A stretch of DNA of 64,000 nucleotides from Candidatus Zhuqueibacterota bacterium (GTDB lineage Bacteria; Zhuqueibacterota; Zhuqueibacteria; Oceanimicrobiales; Oceanimicrobiaceae): contig JAJDAD010000114.1 of the NCBI GenBank assembly GCA_029262055.1, positions 1 through 64,000 of the forward strand, given 5' to 3'. The translations under genes were made by a program, and so were the position numbers. The notes below the pieces were generated by a model. It was not told the DNA's origin. It saw only the letters and a program-made list of their open reading frames with translations, and searched no databases. Shown here piece after piece: positions 57,331 through 63,899 of this stretch (position 1 is its first letter; the number at the start of each line of letters is the position of its first letter).

Positions 57331-57405
57331 TTGCCGGGTGTCGCTCTTGCCGTCACCGCATTTTTCAAAGCGCCATTTCTCCCAAGTAGCTTAAGGAGGT
57401 TAACC

Positions 57406-58002
57406 ATGGCAGGCCATCCAAAAGTCGTAACGCTGAAGGACAAGAGTCGCATCACCATCAGAAGGATGGTGGATGGCGACCTCGACAGCCTGTTGCGATT
57501 CTACCGCTCCATCCCTGAGTCCGACCGCATGTTCCTGCGCATCGACGTGACAAATCCCCGAAACGTCGAACGCAGGTTTGGCCACCTGAACTATGATTAT
57601 GTCTATCCTCTCCTGGCGTTGGACGAGGACCGAATAATTGCGATTGCGACACTTTTCCGGGCAGAATTCGGGTGGAAGCGCAATGTTGGTGAGATTAGAG
57701 TCCTCATTTCCAGACCGTATCAAAGGAAGGGCCTGGCGACAGTCTTCCTGCGCGAGTTGTTTTTTCGGGCCCTGCAAGCCGGCATCCACAAGCTCCAGGC
57801 TGAAATGGTGGACAACCAGGCATCCGCAATAGCTGCTTTCGAAAGACTTGGATTCCGCAAGGAAGCGACTCTCAGAAAACACGTCACGGACCTGCGTGGC
57901 AAACGAGACAATCTGGTCATCATGACCCTGGACATAGAGGACTACTGGCATTTGATAGAAGACCATGTCGAAAATCTCGATATTCGCATTCACAATGTAT
58001 GA
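57406..58002 (+). CDS. GNAT-family N-acetyltransferase
   Basis: 198 residues of the GNAT fold: ITIRRMVDGDLDSLLRFY start, IIAIATLF, the acetyl-CoA loop in RPYQRKGLATVFLRELF (QxxGxA variant), ending AAFERLGFRKEATLRKHV and IMTLDIEDYW. Substrate unknown; the AxxAFERLGF motif is of the RimI/protein-acetylating type. Strong TAAGGAGGT before ATG 57406. It lies 66 bases before korD and may be in the same transcript, so acetylation of the oxidoreductase or of metabolic enzymes is possible but unproven. Confidence 0.85.
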   Translation: MAGHPKVVTLKDKSRITIRRMVDGDLDSLLRFYRSIPESDRMFLRIDVTNPRNVERRFGHLNYDYVYPLLALDEDRIIAIATLFRAEFGWKRNVGEIRVLISRPYQRKGLATVFLRELFFRALQAGIHKLQAEMVDNQASAIAAFERLGFRKEATLRKHVTDLRGKRDNLVIMTLDIEDYWHLIEDHVENLDIRIHNV

Positions 58003-58068: not shown

Positions 58069-58386
58069 GTGAGTTACTGGCGAAAACCTCTGGACTGGGA
58101 CAAGATCAATATACCCGAAGGCAAGATTCACGTCATGGAGGACCAGTGCAAAGGGTGTGGATTCTGCGTGGAATACTGCCCCAAAGATACCCTGGAGATG
58201 TCAGACGACTTTAATCTCAAGGGATATCACCCCGTTGTGGTTGTCAATGAGAAAAGTTGTGTCAACTGCCAATTATGCGAAGTCATCTGCCCTGAATTTG
58301 CGATTTTTGTCACCCTGAAGAACAACTATCCGGCAACGGAGAGGATTCCGGAAACCCGAAAGGGGGTGAAAATTGGTGAAAGCTGA
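58069..58386 (+). CDS. korD: 2-oxoacid:ferredoxin oxidoreductase delta subunit (2x[4Fe-4S])
   Basis: 105-residue ferredoxin-like subunit that carries electrons out of the 2-oxoglutarate:ferredoxin oxidoreductase. Two cluster motifs: CKGCGFCVEYCP and CVNCQLCEVICP. GTG start with AGGAG 8 bases upstream. The next gene starts 11 bases before its stop. The order delta-alpha-beta-gamma is typical of KOR/OGOR operons. Confidence 0.9.
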   Translation: MSYWRKPLDWDKINIPEGKIHVMEDQCKGCGFCVEYCPKDTLEMSDDFNLKGYHPVVVVNEKSCVNCQLCEVICPEFAIFVTLKNNYPATERIPETRKGVKIGES

Positions 58387-59539
58387 CCCCAAAGGAGTTT
58401 TGACCGGCGCGCACTTTCTGGACGGTGATCACGCCTGTGCGGAAGGAGCCCTGGCCGCCGGCTGCCGGTTCTTTGCAGGATATCCCATTACCCCCTCTAC
58501 CGAGGTAGCCGAACGCATCGCCTTACGCTTTCCACTGGTCGGTGGCATTTTCATCCAGATGGAGGATGAGCTGGCGTCCATGGCGGCTGTCCTGGGCGGC
58601 GCGTGGGGCGGGAAAAAGTCCATGACCGTTACCTCAGGTCCCGGGTTCTCTTTGATGATGGAAAACATCGGCTTGGCGGCAATGACCGAGACACCCTGTG
58701 TCATAGTCAATGTGCAGCGCGGCGGGCCTTCCACCGGGCTGCCTACCTTACCCGGACAACAAGATATGATGCAGGCGCGCTGGGGGTCGCATGGTGACTA
58801 TGAGATTATCGCAGTCGTCCCCAACTCACCACAGGAGTGTTTTGATGTGACCATCGAAGCGTTCAATCTGTCGGAAGAGTACCGCGTACCCGTGATGGTC
58901 ATGATGGACGAGTGTGTCGGTCACATGACTGAGAAGGTCGTCATTCCACCAGCTGAAGAAATAGAAGTGTTCAACAGAAGACTATATGACGGGCCCAAGC
59001 AGGACTACCTGCCCTACGCGGTTGACAGCGACAACGGACGTGTGCCGCTGATGGCGAATGCCGGCGCCGGCTACCGTTTTCACGTAACCGGACTCACCCA
59101 CGATGAACGCGGGTATCCTGCCATGAATGCCGAGGTGCAGCAAGAGTGTGTGACCCGGCTGGTCGACAAGGTTAAACTCAACACGCATGCCATTGCCAGA
59201 TATGAAGAGGAGGAGGTCGAGGAAGCAGACATTGTCCTTGTGGCCTATGGCATCAGTTCCCGCGTGGCGATGCGCGCGCTAGAAATGGCACGGGCAGACG
59301 GGATCAAGATCGGACTGTTCCGGATGATTACGGCCTGGCCCTTCCCGGAAGAACGCATACGGCAAATCGCCCAGCACGTGAACTCATTTGTCATGGTTGA
59401 ACTTAACCTTGGCCAAATGGTGACTGAACTGGAACGCTGCGTTGCCGGCGCGGCCAAAGTACATTTAGCCCCTCATGCCGGTGGTTGGGTGCACCATCCG
59501 GAAGATATCCTACAAATCATTTCGGAGGCAACAACATGA
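58376..59539 (+). CDS. korA: 2-oxoacid:ferredoxin oxidoreductase alpha subunit
   Basis: 387 residues: YPITPSTEVAE and the MEDELASMAAVLGGAWGGKKSM segment that contacts TPP, TSGPGFSLMMENIGLA, QRGGPSTGLPTLPGQQD, and a C-terminal transketolase-type domain (VAYGISSRVAMRAL). The KOR (2-oxoglutarate) type is more likely than pyruvate because alpha, beta, gamma and delta are separate and gamma is encoded at the end. GTG 58376 has GGGGGTG 7 bases upstream; TTG 58373 is an alternative. Confidence 0.92.
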   Translation: MKADPKGVLTGAHFLDGDHACAEGALAAGCRFFAGYPITPSTEVAERIALRFPLVGGIFIQMEDELASMAAVLGGAWGGKKSMTVTSGPGFSLMMENIGLAAMTETPCVIVNVQRGGPSTGLPTLPGQQDMMQARWGSHGDYEIIAVVPNSPQECFDVTIEAFNLSEEYRVPVMVMMDECVGHMTEKVVIPPAEEIEVFNRRLYDGPKQDYLPYAVDSDNGRVPLMANAGAGYRFHVTGLTHDERGYPAMNAEVQQECVTRLVDKVKLNTHAIARYEEEEVEEADIVLVAYGISSRVAMRALEMARADGIKIGLFRMITAWPFPEERIRQIAQHVNSFVMVELNLGQMVTELERCVAGAAKVHLAPHAGGWVHHPEDILQIISEATT

Positions 59540-60402
59540 ATGCAGTGACTCATCCGATGGAGGACATCCTGCGCATGGACCGGATGCCGCACATCTGGTG
59601 TCCGGGCTGCGGTATCGGTACGGCGGTAACGGCTTTTGCCATGGCCCTGCAGAAAGCCGAGATATGTCTCGACAAGACCGCCGTGGTTTCCGGCATCGGC
59701 TGCTCCGGACGCGTTGCCGGATATGTGAAGCTGGATTCGTTTCACACCACGCACGGTCGTGCCATCCCCTTTGCCACAGGCCTTAAGTTAGCAAACCCGG
59801 AACTGACGGTGGTGGTCATCAGCGGAGACGGCGACCTGATCGCCATCGGCGGTAATCATTTCATTCATGCCGCCCGGCGCAATGTGGACATCAAAGTGTT
59901 TTGCATCAACAACTTCAACTATGCCATGACCGGTGGACAATTGGCGCCCACCACTCCGGAACCGGCGACCACAACGACTTCTCCCTATGGCGCTTTCGAG
60001 CACCCTTTCAATCTACCGTTTCTCGCCGAAAGCAGCGGCGCCGTCTATGTGGCGCGCTGGACGGCCCTGCACATCCGGCGGCTTACAAAATCCATGACCG
60101 AGGCGCTGAGCAAGAAAGGTTTTTCTTTTGTCGAGATCATTGCGCCGTGCCCCACCCTCTATTCACGCAGAAATCGCCTGGGTGATGGACTGGACGAACT
60201 GAAATACTACCACGACAACAGTGTTATTAAGCACGGTTTGGACACGCGCGAGCTCGACATTGGTTATCGTAAGGAAATCGTCATGGGTAAATTTGTCGAT
60301 AAGGATCGACCGACTTTTATCGAGGCATTGAATGACCGTTTCACACAGGTATTCGGAGACAAATACGAACAATACGGACCACAAAATGCGAACGGAAATT
60401 AG
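59536..60402 (+). CDS. korB: 2-oxoacid:ferredoxin oxidoreductase beta subunit (TPP-binding)
   Basis: 288 residues. WCPGCGIGTAVTAF near the start, then the TPP-Mg motif GDGDLIAIGGNHFIHAARRN with NNFNYAMTGGQ. The ATG overlaps the korA stop (ATGA) with GGAGG 8 bases upstream. Standard length for the KorB family. Confidence 0.93.
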   Translation: MNAVTHPMEDILRMDRMPHIWCPGCGIGTAVTAFAMALQKAEICLDKTAVVSGIGCSGRVAGYVKLDSFHTTHGRAIPFATGLKLANPELTVVVISGDGDLIAIGGNHFIHAARRNVDIKVFCINNFNYAMTGGQLAPTTPEPATTTTSPYGAFEHPFNLPFLAESSGAVYVARWTALHIRRLTKSMTEALSKKGFSFVEIIAPCPTLYSRRNRLGDGLDELKYYHDNSVIKHGLDTRELDIGYRKEIVMGKFVDKDRPTFIEALNDRFTQVFGDKYEQYGPQNANGN

Positions 60403-60970
60403 ATTTTCTGGACTTGGCGGACAGGGCATAATTTTGTCCGGAATTATAGCCGGCAAGGCTGCCTCTTTGTTTGATCACAAACACGCCACCATGACACAGA
60501 GCTTCGGGCCGGAGGCGAGAGGTAGCGCGTGCAGCGCCCAACTCATCGTGTCCGACGAACCGGTTTTTTACCCCTACATAACAAAGACCCATGTGCTGGT
60601 GTCCATGTCGCAAGATGCGTGTGACAAGTTTCTGCCGGACCTGATTGCGGGCGGCACATTGCTGGTGGACGAAGATCTGGTCAACCTGCGGTCCCGCAGC
60701 GGGTCATTCAAGATGTTCGAAGTGCCGGCCACACGCTATGCCGAAGAGCTGGGCAACCGCATCCTGGGCAACCTGGTCATGCTAGGATACTTCTCCGCGA
60801 TTACGCGCACCGTTTCGCCGGAGTCTTTCAAGAAAGCTATCCCGGGATCCGTGCCGCAACGTTACCTCGACCTCAACATTCACGCCTTTGACCGGGGGTT
60901 TGAACATGGGATCAGCCAGGGCAAACAGAAAAAGAACAAGAAGAGCGCAAAAGTTATCGAGGAGCGCTGA
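60386..60970 (+). CDS. korC: 2-oxoacid:ferredoxin oxidoreductase gamma subunit
   Basis: 194 residues: FSGLGGQGIILSGIIAGKAA and QSFGPEARGSACSAQLIVSD are the hallmark of the gamma domain, and the Lys-rich end (KQKKNKKSAKVIEER) is an unusual tail. Starts inside the end of korB (17-base overlap), so the subunits are made together. Confidence 0.92.
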   Translation: MRTEIRFSGLGGQGIILSGIIAGKAASLFDHKHATMTQSFGPEARGSACSAQLIVSDEPVFYPYITKTHVLVSMSQDACDKFLPDLIAGGTLLVDEDLVNLRSRSGSFKMFEVPATRYAEELGNRILGNLVMLGYFSAITRTVSPESFKKAIPGSVPQRYLDLNIHAFDRGFEHGISQGKQKKNKKSAKVIEER

Positions 60971-60972
60971 AC

Positions 60973-63312
60973 ATGCATAACCTTGAAGAAATGATGGGTG
61001 AAAATATAGACCTCACACTGACATTTCGCGATGCTGACAGCAGCTATCAGGTTAACCGCATCCATCCATCGCCCTGCATGACGGCCTGTCCTGCCGGCGT
61101 CAATGTCAAGTCTTACGTATCTCTCATTTCGTCAGGCCGCTTCGCGCAGGCGCTTGCGGTCGTAAAGGAAAAAAACCCGTTCCCCGGCATTTGTGGCCGG
61201 GTTTGCCCCCATCCTTGCGAAGAACATTGCACGCGGGGCGAAGTGGACGCACCCCTAGCCATCGCCTCCTTGAAGCGGTTTGTCGCGGACTACGAACTGC
61301 GCAACCCAACCGAAAATCCCGGGCCACTACCCCGAAGCAGAGATGAGAAAATAGCTGTTGTCGGTTCCGGCCCTGCCGGTCTCACTGTTGCCAACGATTT
61401 AATCAGAAAGGGCTTTGGCGTAACCGTGTTCGAGCAGTTGCCACAGGCCGGTGGCATGATGCTGGCCGGAATTCCGAGCTATCGCCTGCCGCGTGACATT
61501 ATTCGCGTAGAAGTTGAGGCAATCGAACGTCTAGGCGTCAAGATTAAAACCAACACAAGAATCGCCGGGCCGGCAGCCATCGACAAGCTGTTTGAGAAAG
61601 GGTTCAGCGCGGTTTTTCTTGGGATAGGCGCCCACCGGGGCAGGAAACTCGCCATTGCCGGCGAAAGCAAGTACGAAGGTTTCCACGATGCAATCTCCTT
61701 TTTGCACAGTGTCAATCTTGGCAAGCCCCTGCAACCGGGCAAGAGAGTCATCGTGGTCGGCGGCGGCAGCTCTGCCTTCGACTCCGCCCGCACGGCGATA
61801 CGTTTGGGAAGCCAGGAAATCACTATCCTCTATCGTCGAACCCGGCAGGAGATGCCGGCCACCGCTGAGGAAATTGCAGTTGCCGAACCGGAAGGGATTA
61901 AACTGCACTATCTGGCGGCGCCTGTCAAGATCCTCGGTAAGAAGGGCAAAGTCTCGGGCATGACGTGCATTGGGATGGAATTGGCTGAACCAGATGAGAG
62001 CGGGCGCCGCAGACCCGTGCCCATCGCAGGCTCAGAATTCACTTTGAAGGCTGACACGATTATCTCGGCCATCAGCCAGGAGCCCGATCTGTCGTTCCTG
62101 CCGGATGACCACGGGTTCAAGATTTCAAAATGGCAGACTTTCAAAGCAGATGCCGGCACGTTGTTGACAACCCGTCCCGGTGTTTTTGTCGGCGGAGACG
62201 CCTACAGCGGACCAGCCACGATAATCGACGCCATAGCAACTGGGCACGTGGCAGCACAATCAATAGAGCGCTATTTGAACAAGGAGCCCCTGGAGCAGGA
62301 CTGCGACCGAGCTCTGCCAGCGGAAACCGAGATTAAAGCAGATCTAAGTCAATATGAAAAATCCAGACGCACAGCGCAAACGCAGCTGGCCATGTCCAAA
62401 ATCACCGGCAATTTCGAAGAAGTTGAATTGGGGTATGATGAAGCTGCCGCCATCGCCGAGGCAAGCCGGTGTCTGCGCTGCGGGCCGTGTGAAGAATGCT
62501 TCCTCTGCGTGCCGGAATGCGGTAAGCGTCTACATGTGTTGATTGCGGCAAACGGTGCCGGCGCACAGTTCTTGCGGTATCCGATTGGATTTGATGCTCC
62601 GCAGACGGGCCATGGCACGGTCGCCGCTGCCCTGCGTTCCAGCTCCAACACGATTGATTCCGTACAGATATCACCGCTCACCTGCTATGTCAATGCGGAC
62701 CTCTGCCGGGGCTGTGGCGAATGTACGACGGTTTGCGAATACTCAGCGCCGGCACTGTCGCCCAAGGATAGCGGGCTTTTTGTTTCGAGAATCGACGAAA
62801 ACATTTGCAAAGGTTGCGGTACATGCGTTACGGTTTGTCCTTCCAGCGCGATCGAACAGAGGTATTTTACTCAGGAACGCTTTTTGGACAAACTCATGAA
62901 GATGGATCCAACCCGGAAAAACGTCGTGACTTTCACCTGCTCGTGGTACGGATCTCATTTAAACCGGTCCTCGTTCACGCACCTGACTCACCAGGATTAC
63001 AACCTGTTGTTCCAGAGCGTCGCCTGCTCCGGCAGAATTGAACCGGCATTGATTCTAAACGCATTTGAACACGGCGCTGAGGGCGTACTGGTGGTCGGCT
63101 GTGGCATGGGCGCCTGCCATTATGGTTTCGGAAACAAGCATGCTGAAGAACACTTCGGGACCGTACGGAATTTGCTGAACGTCCTTGGCTTCTCTGCGGA
63201 GAAATTTCAATGGGCCTGGACCGGGGCAGAACAAAGCGGGGATGTGGTGGAGGCCGTTGATGTTTCCCTGAACAGCATCCAGGGAAACAAGACCTGTGAG
63301 GAATCCACGTGA
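60973..63312 (+). CDS. Fused FAD/NAD(P) oxidoreductase (GltD/NfnB-like), ferredoxins and FlpD/MvhD-like domain
   Basis: 779 residues. N-terminal Fe-S region (Cys35, 39, 74, 78, 82, 86), FAD loop VGSGPAGLTVANDL (about 130), NAD(P) loop VGGGSSAFDSA (about 260) and GVFVGGDAYSGPATIIDAIA: a GltD small-subunit type. Then a Cys cluster around 495-515, two [4Fe-4S] motifs (CRGCGECTTVCEYS, about 578; CKGCGTCVTVCPS, about 613), and a FlpD/MvhD-type domain (652-760) with ACSGRIEPALILNAFEHGAE and GCGMGACHYGFGN. In hydrogenase-heterodisulfide complexes FlpD carries electrons. The chain suits electron transfer between ferredoxin and NAD(P)H with KOR. The first FlpD CxxC reads CSWY. Confidence 0.88.
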   Translation: MHNLEEMMGENIDLTLTFRDADSSYQVNRIHPSPCMTACPAGVNVKSYVSLISSGRFAQALAVVKEKNPFPGICGRVCPHPCEEHCTRGEVDAPLAIASLKRFVADYELRNPTENPGPLPRSRDEKIAVVGSGPAGLTVANDLIRKGFGVTVFEQLPQAGGMMLAGIPSYRLPRDIIRVEVEAIERLGVKIKTNTRIAGPAAIDKLFEKGFSAVFLGIGAHRGRKLAIAGESKYEGFHDAISFLHSVNLGKPLQPGKRVIVVGGGSSAFDSARTAIRLGSQEITILYRRTRQEMPATAEEIAVAEPEGIKLHYLAAPVKILGKKGKVSGMTCIGMELAEPDESGRRRPVPIAGSEFTLKADTIISAISQEPDLSFLPDDHGFKISKWQTFKADAGTLLTTRPGVFVGGDAYSGPATIIDAIATGHVAAQSIERYLNKEPLEQDCDRALPAETEIKADLSQYEKSRRTAQTQLAMSKITGNFEEVELGYDEAAAIAEASRCLRCGPCEECFLCVPECGKRLHVLIAANGAGAQFLRYPIGFDAPQTGHGTVAAALRSSSNTIDSVQISPLTCYVNADLCRGCGECTTVCEYSAPALSPKDSGLFVSRIDENICKGCGTCVTVCPSSAIEQRYFTQERFLDKLMKMDPTRKNVVTFTCSWYGSHLNRSSFTHLTHQDYNLLFQSVACSGRIEPALILNAFEHGAEGVLVVGCGMGACHYGFGNKHAEEHFGTVRNLLNVLGFSAEKFQWAWTGAEQSGDVVEAVDVSLNSIQGNKTCEEST

Positions 63313-63370: not shown

Positions 63371-63535
63371 ATGTCAACCTATGAGTACAAATGCCGGCAG
63401 TGTGGCCATGAATTTGAACAAGTCATGACCATCGAGCAGCATGAAAAGTTCGGACCACAATGCCCAAAGTGTGATAGCAAAAAGGTCGAGTCTGTATTCA
63501 GCACCTTCTTTGCCAAGACCGACAGTAAAGCCTAA
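63371..63535 (+). CDS. FmdB-type small zinc ribbon protein
   Basis: 54 residues: TYEYKCRQCGHEFEQVMTIE and CPKCDSKK form a CxxC...CxxC zinc ribbon of the FmdB family, whose function is unknown. GGAGGGAATGTC precedes the ATG at 63371. It begins 59 bases after the fusion gene and belongs to the kor transcript by spacing and strand. Confidence 0.82.
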   Translation: MSTYEYKCRQCGHEFEQVMTIEQHEKFGPQCPKCDSKKVESVFSTFFAKTDSKA

Positions 63536-63575: not shown

Positions 63576-63899
63576 ATGGATTACCTGGAAGCCATTCGAC
63601 AACGTGTATGCCCGATCTGTACGGCGGGGATTGTCCACCGTGACGATCAGTTCTTCCGCTGCGGGCTGACCCCGGGTCGAACCTGTCCAGTGGAGAGACA
63701 CCTGCCAGAGATCCTTGAGGTCATGGACTCAATGGACAGTCCCTGGATGGACGATTATGTTACGCGTCTGCGGGAGAGAGTGTGCTCAAAACAGGAACAA
63801 ACTGAGGAGAGTAGCGGTGACTTCTACTTAAAAGGAGAATGCACACTCGATACTTATTTCATGCTGATCGCCGAGGCTGTTGAGGAAGTGAAGGGTTAG
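63576..63899 (+). CDS. Small Cys-rich protein of unknown function at the end of the kor operon
   Basis: 107 residues: Cys12 and Cys15 (CPIC), Cys29, Cys37, Cys70 and one near 93. The CPIC-x13-C-x7-C pattern could hold zinc or an Fe-S cluster. The rest is acidic and helical (LPEILEVMDSMDSPWMDDY). AAAGGA before ATG 63576. Not a family I recognise; its position after redox genes suggests an accessory role. Confidence 0.65.
   Translation: MDYLEAIRQRVCPICTAGIVHRDDQFFRCGLTPGRTCPVERHLPEILEVMDSMDSPWMDDYVTRLRERVCSKQEQTEESSGDFYLKGECTLDTYFMLIAEAVEEVKG

Follow-up and report, generated by a model that had tools for sequence, protein, structure and literature searches.

In Azoarcus evansii, a 2-oxoglutarate:NADP+ oxidoreductase is known in which a 2-oxoacid:ferredoxin oxidoreductase (KOR) is given access to NADP+ by a flavoprotein. 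In degraders of aromatic compounds, korAB together with bzdV forms a system that regenerates ferredoxin (PMC5736913), and in Moorella a bacterial catabolic enzyme has been recruited to HdrABC-MvhD (MetFV-HdrABC-MvhD; PMC9012536). The joining of a GltD/NfnB module to parts of HdrA is known from the type III HdrA (HdrA-NfnB) of ANME-1 and Bathyarchaeota, for which an entry of NAD(P)H into the Hdr complex has been proposed (PMC12054007, PMC9012536). In the locus described here a GltD-ferredoxin-FlpD fusion follows a kor operon and, judged from the sequences, appears on balance to be the arm that handles NAD(P)H in a soluble confurcating or bifurcating complex of the HdrABC type, dedicated to a putative 2-oxoglutarate:ferredoxin oxidoreductase of the TCA cycle.

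The window (the whole stretch of DNA that was analysed, 64,000 bases) represents the first part of a contig which extends to position 83,739. Towards its end all four KorABCD subunits are encoded, with TPP and Fe-S domains, by genes which overlap or nearly touch (the ATG of korB, for instance, overlaps the korA stop codon). KorA exceeded the cutoff of NCBIfam model NF006412 (580.6 bits against 411); the best NCBIfam matches of KorB (2-oxoglutarate:ferredoxin oxidoreductase beta subunit, 5.6e-71) and KorD (OGOR_delta, 1.7e-18) were below cutoff. On the same strand, after a gap of 2 bases from korC, one chain was found to join an oxidoreductase of the GltD/NfnB type, Fe-S clusters and a FlpD/MvhD domain, and both the composition of this chain and its position right after korDABC were as the initial annotation had described them (Table 1). 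A GNAT acetyltransferase gene (window 57331-58002) lies upstream of korD, and genome G026 (candidate division KSB1, same family as the window) has a 70% identical one in the same place. A Zn-ribbon (Zn_ribbon_8) ORF and a small ORF (window 63372-63535 and 63576-63899) lie between the fusion and the citrate synthase gene, and both are missing after the fusion in G026.

Table 1. Features of the kor-fusion-hdr locus; positions are those of the window unless marked as contig positions.
Feature	Position	Strand	Basis
korD, 2x[4Fe-4S] ferredoxin-like delta subunit	58069..58386	+	Pfam Fer4 families
korA, 2-oxoacid:acceptor oxidoreductase alpha subunit	58373..59539	+	Pfam POR_N 4.5e-72, PFOR_II
korB, TPP-binding beta subunit	59536..60402	+	Pfam TPP_enzyme_C 6.4e-33
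korC, gamma subunit, likely start ATG 60386	60386..60970	+	Pfam POR PF01558 9.3e-30
GltD-Fd-FlpD fusion gene	60973..63312	+	single uninterrupted ORF, 779 aa
Fer4_20, N-terminal Fe-S domain, residues 33-110	61069..61302	+	Pfam 2.3e-24
FAD/NAD(P)H domain Pyr_redox_2, residues 126-424	61348..62244	+	Pfam 4.9e-24
Cys-rich linker, residues 500-516, CxxCxxCxxCxxCxxxC	62470..62520	+	alignment of homologues
Two [4Fe-4S] motifs, residues ~573-630, resembling HdrA C-terminal ferredoxin domain	62689..62862	+	Pfam, alignment
FlpD/MvhD domain (PF02662), residues 651-767	62923..63273	+	Pfam 3.4e-24
Citrate synthase	contig 63982-65286 (63982..64000 inside window)	+	Pfam
Fused HdrC-HdrB, 382 aa	contig 65585-66733	+	Pfam
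HdrA-FlpD, 823 codons, one in-frame TGA (67867)	contig 67261-69729	+	profile and structure-sequence matches
hdrA Sec TGA	contig 67867 (L003:5868)	+	in-frame, CxxU motif

A Fer4_20 domain and a Pyr_redox_2 domain, together bearing the motifs for FAD and NAD(P)H, identify the fusion as a flavoprotein of the GltD/NfnB type, and its residues 33-512 have the chains of NfnABC, StnABC and NfnAB as their nearest relatives in sequence and fold. None of the curated GltD-type models was passed by the fusion (PRK12771 came closest, with 508.7 against 516; GltA gave 379 against 472). When 18 full-length bacterial homologues were aligned, 24 cysteines were invariant: the N-terminal Fe-S domain (Cys 35, 39, 74, 78, 82 and 86) and the linker have six each, the ferredoxin part has eight and FlpD four. 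In the nucleotide motif GGGSSA (GxGxxA) A268 was invariant, and R288-R289 was nearly so; by the criterion of PMC12054007 this motif leans weakly towards NADP. The AlphaFold single-chain model (mean pLDDT 78.9) had NfnABC and StnABC chains as its top PDB fold matches, and in the search with the whole model the best 50 matches covered the GltD half alone, with nothing on FlpD. Residues 557-763 align to positions 558-762 of HdrA2, and also to solved HdrA and MvhD chains, so that the fusion is a GltD carrying the C-terminal end of an HdrA2, with its ferredoxin and FlpD. The GltD tree had long branches and a weak backbone, and gave no supported pairing of the window copy with that of G026.

The domain search proposed for the C-terminal part returned FlpD (Pfam PF02662) with 85.7 bits, the cutoff being 22.3, and covered positions 1-117 of the 123 in the profile. 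This domain is without the second cysteine of the canonical CxxC, the fifth canonical cysteine, whereas the FlpD fused to HdrA retains all five. The loss would suit a FlpD that is a structural docking piece only and transfers no electrons, as would the homologues from Thermoplasmatota, which in the sequences read keep the FlpD fold and have lost the cysteines. The other four (Cys 656, 685, 710 and 715), however, persist in 18/18 bacterial fusions at identities down to 36%, and four is the number conserved in PF02662 by its published description (PMC5736913); a [2Fe-2S] cluster is predicted on this basis, and a docking role alone seems quite improbable.

It had been stated in the initial annotation that no Hdr gene was adjacent, which proved to be wrong, as hdrCB and hdrA-flpD follow past the end of the window; the idea of KOR and FlpD working without Hdr was rejected on account of this full HdrA(FlpD)/HdrCB set. 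A search of the window's genome for FlpD gave a second copy at contig position 69,262. The encoded HdrA is complete, matching a solved HdrA over its full length (PDB 5odc_A, E=2e-223) and scoring 1144.5 bits, above the HdrA2 cutoff of 1100. The residues K409 and E356, which matter for bifurcation in HdrA (PMC12054007), are kept at the FAD site as K420 and E367 in 16/16 correctly framed copies. In the HdrCB of the window two CCG motifs (PF02754, two stretches) and two 4Fe-4S motifs (Fer4) are all complete; both CCG motifs are retained among 17 copies, two of which vary in one cysteine of the first CxxC. Among named proteins HdrCB comes closest to TfrB, a subunit of thiol:fumarate reductase. Besides the fusion, Pfam identified in the operon KorDABC, citrate synthase, HdrCB and HdrA, and no small subunit of the NfnA type. 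The bifurcating flavin more likely resides in the HdrA of the cluster than in the fusion alone, because the full HdrA(FlpD)/HdrCB set is present and the equivalents of K409 and E356 are conserved. Two features count against the reading of the fusion as an arm of this complex: three ORFs, including citrate synthase, separate the fusion from hdrCB in the window's genome, and HdrA already has a FlpD of its own, which leaves the second one without an obvious role. A hemerythrin-like ORF and a large PFOR (NifJ-like) ORF (contig 72044-76777) were noted downstream of the hdrA cluster.

An in-frame TGA occupies a conserved site in 18/18 cluster hdrA genes that are readable there, and in the window copy the residue (U203) aligns with Cys197 of 5odc_A, a ligand which HdrA donates to the N-terminal cluster of its partner subunit on the ferredoxin branch (PMC9012536). 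A SECIS-like hairpin (7 bp, GGUC loop) begins 23 bases past the T of the TGA; it is 100% paired in 18 sequences with covariation exceeding that of slid controls, and although the stretch is also constrained as protein, the synonymous choice between CGA and CGG at an Arg codon follows the base with which it pairs. The window's genome has SelB, an adjoining SelD-like gene and tRNA-Sec, and SelB was above cutoff in 13/14 other cluster genomes. With in-frame UGA, SECIS-like hairpin and Sec machinery all present, the cluster HdrA is a predicted selenoprotein, a CxxU selenoprotein HdrA being already known (PMC13188914). The possibility of a broken or frameshifted hdrA was rejected, since 18 loci share the TGA, in the same frame and at an equivalent codon, together with the conserved hairpin and the Sec machinery. 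Such a gene is easily overlooked, as the TGA splits it into two ORFs in automatic annotation. A SelD-like gene was also observed upstream of korD in four Neomarinimicrobiota loci (L042, L043, L051 and L074), and the HdrA motif of Neomarinimicrobiota CSMAG_939 contains two TGAs (UxxU; L064:7930-8010).

A total of 84,980 species genomes were scanned from two peptide patterns, which gave 38 loci on MAG contigs, some of them ending at contig edges. Neomarinimicrobiota was the most frequent title among these, the others being KSB1, WOR-3, Nitrospiria, Eisenbacteria, Acidimicrobiia, Gemmatimonadetes, Planctomycetota and Thermoplasmatota. The genes korDABC-gltD/flpD-hdrCB-hdrA are contiguous in G026 (locus L035), and the order korDABC, gltD-Fd(-FlpD), hdrCB, hdrA was also found in Neomarinimicrobiota, WOR-3 and Acidimicrobiia; the contigs from Nitrospiria and Gemmatimonadetes stop within the fusion and the one from Eisenbacteria starts at it. 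Conservation of gene order across several phyla excludes a chance placement of the fusion. Co-occurrence with kor, which the initial annotation had offered as a check, held for approximately 23 genomes among the bacterial loci with readable upstream sequence, and failed in a few: CSMAG_939 (L064) has korD only, a Planctomycetota locus (L053) has a fusion homologue lacking FlpD and no kor was found there, a different ORF lies directly upstream of the homologue in L048, and the Thermoplasmatota have no kor. The long chain was present in 2/82 sampled genomes of the window's phylum and in approximately 12/149 of Neomarinimicrobiota, and its distribution is therefore patchy. When pairwise distances were compared among KorB, HdrA, HdrCB and the fusion, they correlated at r of 0.79-0.94, values in which species phylogeny is not controlled for.

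The same clusters bear on the suggestion that the fusion is the small subunit of a glutamate synthase which stands here by chance. The window's genome does have a GltB-type protein elsewhere and no second strong GltD match, but the fusion keeps the company of kor and hdr genes across phyla, it carries FlpD and an HdrA-type ferredoxin, and there is no gltB in any cluster examined; this identity was disfavoured and is extremely improbable.

In most lineages FlpD is part of the GltD chain. L064 and L071 have it as a gene of its own, and in L062, as in L059 to judge by its sequence, it precedes HdrCB within one chain. As FlpD is attached to GltD in one case and to HdrCB in the other, the fusions suggest that GltD, FlpD and HdrCB touch each other or form one complex. 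It could instead be proposed that there is no bifurcation, the fusion being a diaphorase that gives KOR direct access to NAD(P)+ and HdrABC an independent user of ferredoxin encoded in the same operon. The fusion gene adjoins korC, and KOR with a partner flavoprotein has a precedent in the korAB and bzdV of aromatic degraders (PMC5736913), but the proposal would leave unexplained both the FlpD with its move to HdrCB (L059 and L062) and the fact that hdrCB and hdrA are almost always there in fusion clusters, and we consider it unlikely.

Chains of other construction were also encountered. Four Thermoplasmatota loci (L058, L065, L068 and L076) encode chains of approximately 1040 amino acids composed of GltD, ferredoxin, FlpD without the conserved cysteines and CCG, which adjoin flavoproteins resembling sarcosine oxidase or amino acid dehydrogenase; genes resembling RNA polymerase subunits lie upstream of the chain in L058, L065 and L076. 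Within the window's phylum, GltD is inserted into HdrA in a type III-like manner in L037, L038 and L039 (genomes G055, G056 and G077), with a split form in L036 (G063), an arrangement reported from methane-metabolizing archaea (PMC12054007).

SucA, the E1 of 2-oxoglutarate dehydrogenase, is absent from the window's genome and from 12/14 cluster genomes, where KOR may then be the sole enzyme of this kind to convert 2-oxoglutarate. In L043 and L046 a citrate synthase gene and then an MDH-like gene lie directly downstream of the cluster. No true ATP-citrate lyase was found in the window's genome, in which the single Citrate_bind match is a SucC-like protein beside SucD, and a classical reductive TCA cycle via ATP-citrate lyase was rejected for this reason. 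The fusion and HdrABC could work reductively, bifurcating electrons from NAD(P)H to a disulfide (downhill) and to ferredoxin (uphill), with the reduced ferredoxin driving KOR to carboxylate succinyl-CoA to 2-oxoglutarate in a reversed oxidative TCA cycle that uses citrate synthase. This would require the same parts list as the adaptor reading; methanogen HdrABC runs in the ferredoxin-reducing direction, and a citrate synthase gene that lies within or beside the cluster, like the lack of a true ATP-citrate lyase, is in keeping with it. Nothing, however, points to autotrophy, a steady supply of a high-potential disulfide would be needed, and the genes for NuoEFG of Complex I suit a respiring heterotroph, so that the reductive direction appears somewhat unlikely.

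In the oxidative direction, which is slightly more likely to be the one used, KOR would make succinyl-CoA and reduce ferredoxin, and electrons from reduced ferredoxin and from thiols would be confurcated to NAD(P)H. The GltD part would exchange hydride with NAD(P)(H) at its FAD, electrons would pass between it and HdrA through the Fe-S clusters of the fusion and then the FlpD [2Fe-2S] cluster, and the FAD of HdrA would confurcate or bifurcate electron pairs among NAD(P)H, the ferredoxin that KorABCD also uses, and a thiol/disulfide couple at HdrCB with its two CCG motifs. Ferredoxin has a potential of approximately -0.5 V, NAD(P)H of -0.32 V and a disulfide of the CoM/CoB type of approximately -0.14 V; NAD(P)H lies midway, as Hdr confurcation requires, and it is for this reason that we propose a path from NAD(P)H over GltD and FlpD to HdrA(FAD), from where one branch would lead to ferredoxin/KOR and the other to HdrCB. 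To our knowledge CoM and CoB are not expected in bacteria, and DsrC was rejected as the partner of HdrCB, being absent from the window's genome. The physical complex, the electron path, its direction, the nucleotide preference and the disulfide substrate are all things that we infer. The fusion thus described probably ties 2-oxoglutarate metabolism to NAD(P)H via flavin-based electron confurcation or bifurcation; the link between KOR-reduced ferredoxin and NAD(P)H put forward in the initial annotation retains the support of gene order and domain make-up, while its premise of a FlpD without Hdr has been refuted.

A fuller version, held tentatively and at somewhat less than even chances, is that KorABCD, GltD-FlpD, HdrCB and seleno-HdrA form a widespread supercomplex which couples 2-oxoglutarate oxidation to NADP(H) and a bacterial disulfide by flavin-based confurcation, and which in several uncultured phyla takes the place of the 2-oxoglutarate dehydrogenase complex. 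If the proposed role of the fusion is right, Hdr-type bifurcation or confurcation, known mainly from methanogens and acetogens, would be wired into a central TCA step of several bacterial phyla, NAD(P)H would enter the Hdr system through the GltD-FlpD fusion, and the question of which bacterial disulfide HdrCB uses becomes testable. Neither the gene order korDABC-gltD/flpD-hdrCB-hdrA nor the GltD-FlpD fusion has apparently been described, no description having been found in a limited open-licence literature.

The locus resembles the Azoarcus evansii enzyme and korAB/bzdV in that an additional flavoprotein would link the oxidation of 2-oxoglutarate to NADP, but we know of no FlpD or Hdr in those systems. 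With the bifurcating transhydrogenases NfnABC, StnABC and NfnAB (9bov, 8oh5, 4ylf) the likeness is confined to residues 33-512 of the fusion; no NfnA (small FAD/[2Fe-2S] subunit) was found in the operon, and the C-terminus of the fusion is FlpD rather than an extension of the NuoG/FdhA type. In Moorella MetFV-HdrABC-MvhD, methylenetetrahydrofolate reductase stands in place of KOR, and no GltD-FlpD fusion is described. A GltD/NfnB module joined to HdrA parts is shared with type III HdrA, in which GltD lies inside HdrA, whereas here it is on a separate chain with an HdrA-like C-terminal ferredoxin and FlpD, beside a complete HdrA-FlpD. The methanogen HdrABC-MvhADG and HdrABC-Fdh complexes (PDB 5odc, 7bkb, 8rvu) are alike in the HdrA Cys197 position, the K and E of the FAD site, the two ferredoxin domains, the HdrC- and HdrB-type parts and the FlpD/MvhD entry plug; in the bacterial locus a FlpD-fused NAD(P)H module replaces MvhAG or FdhAB, HdrC and HdrB are fused, and the genes stand in a KOR operon.
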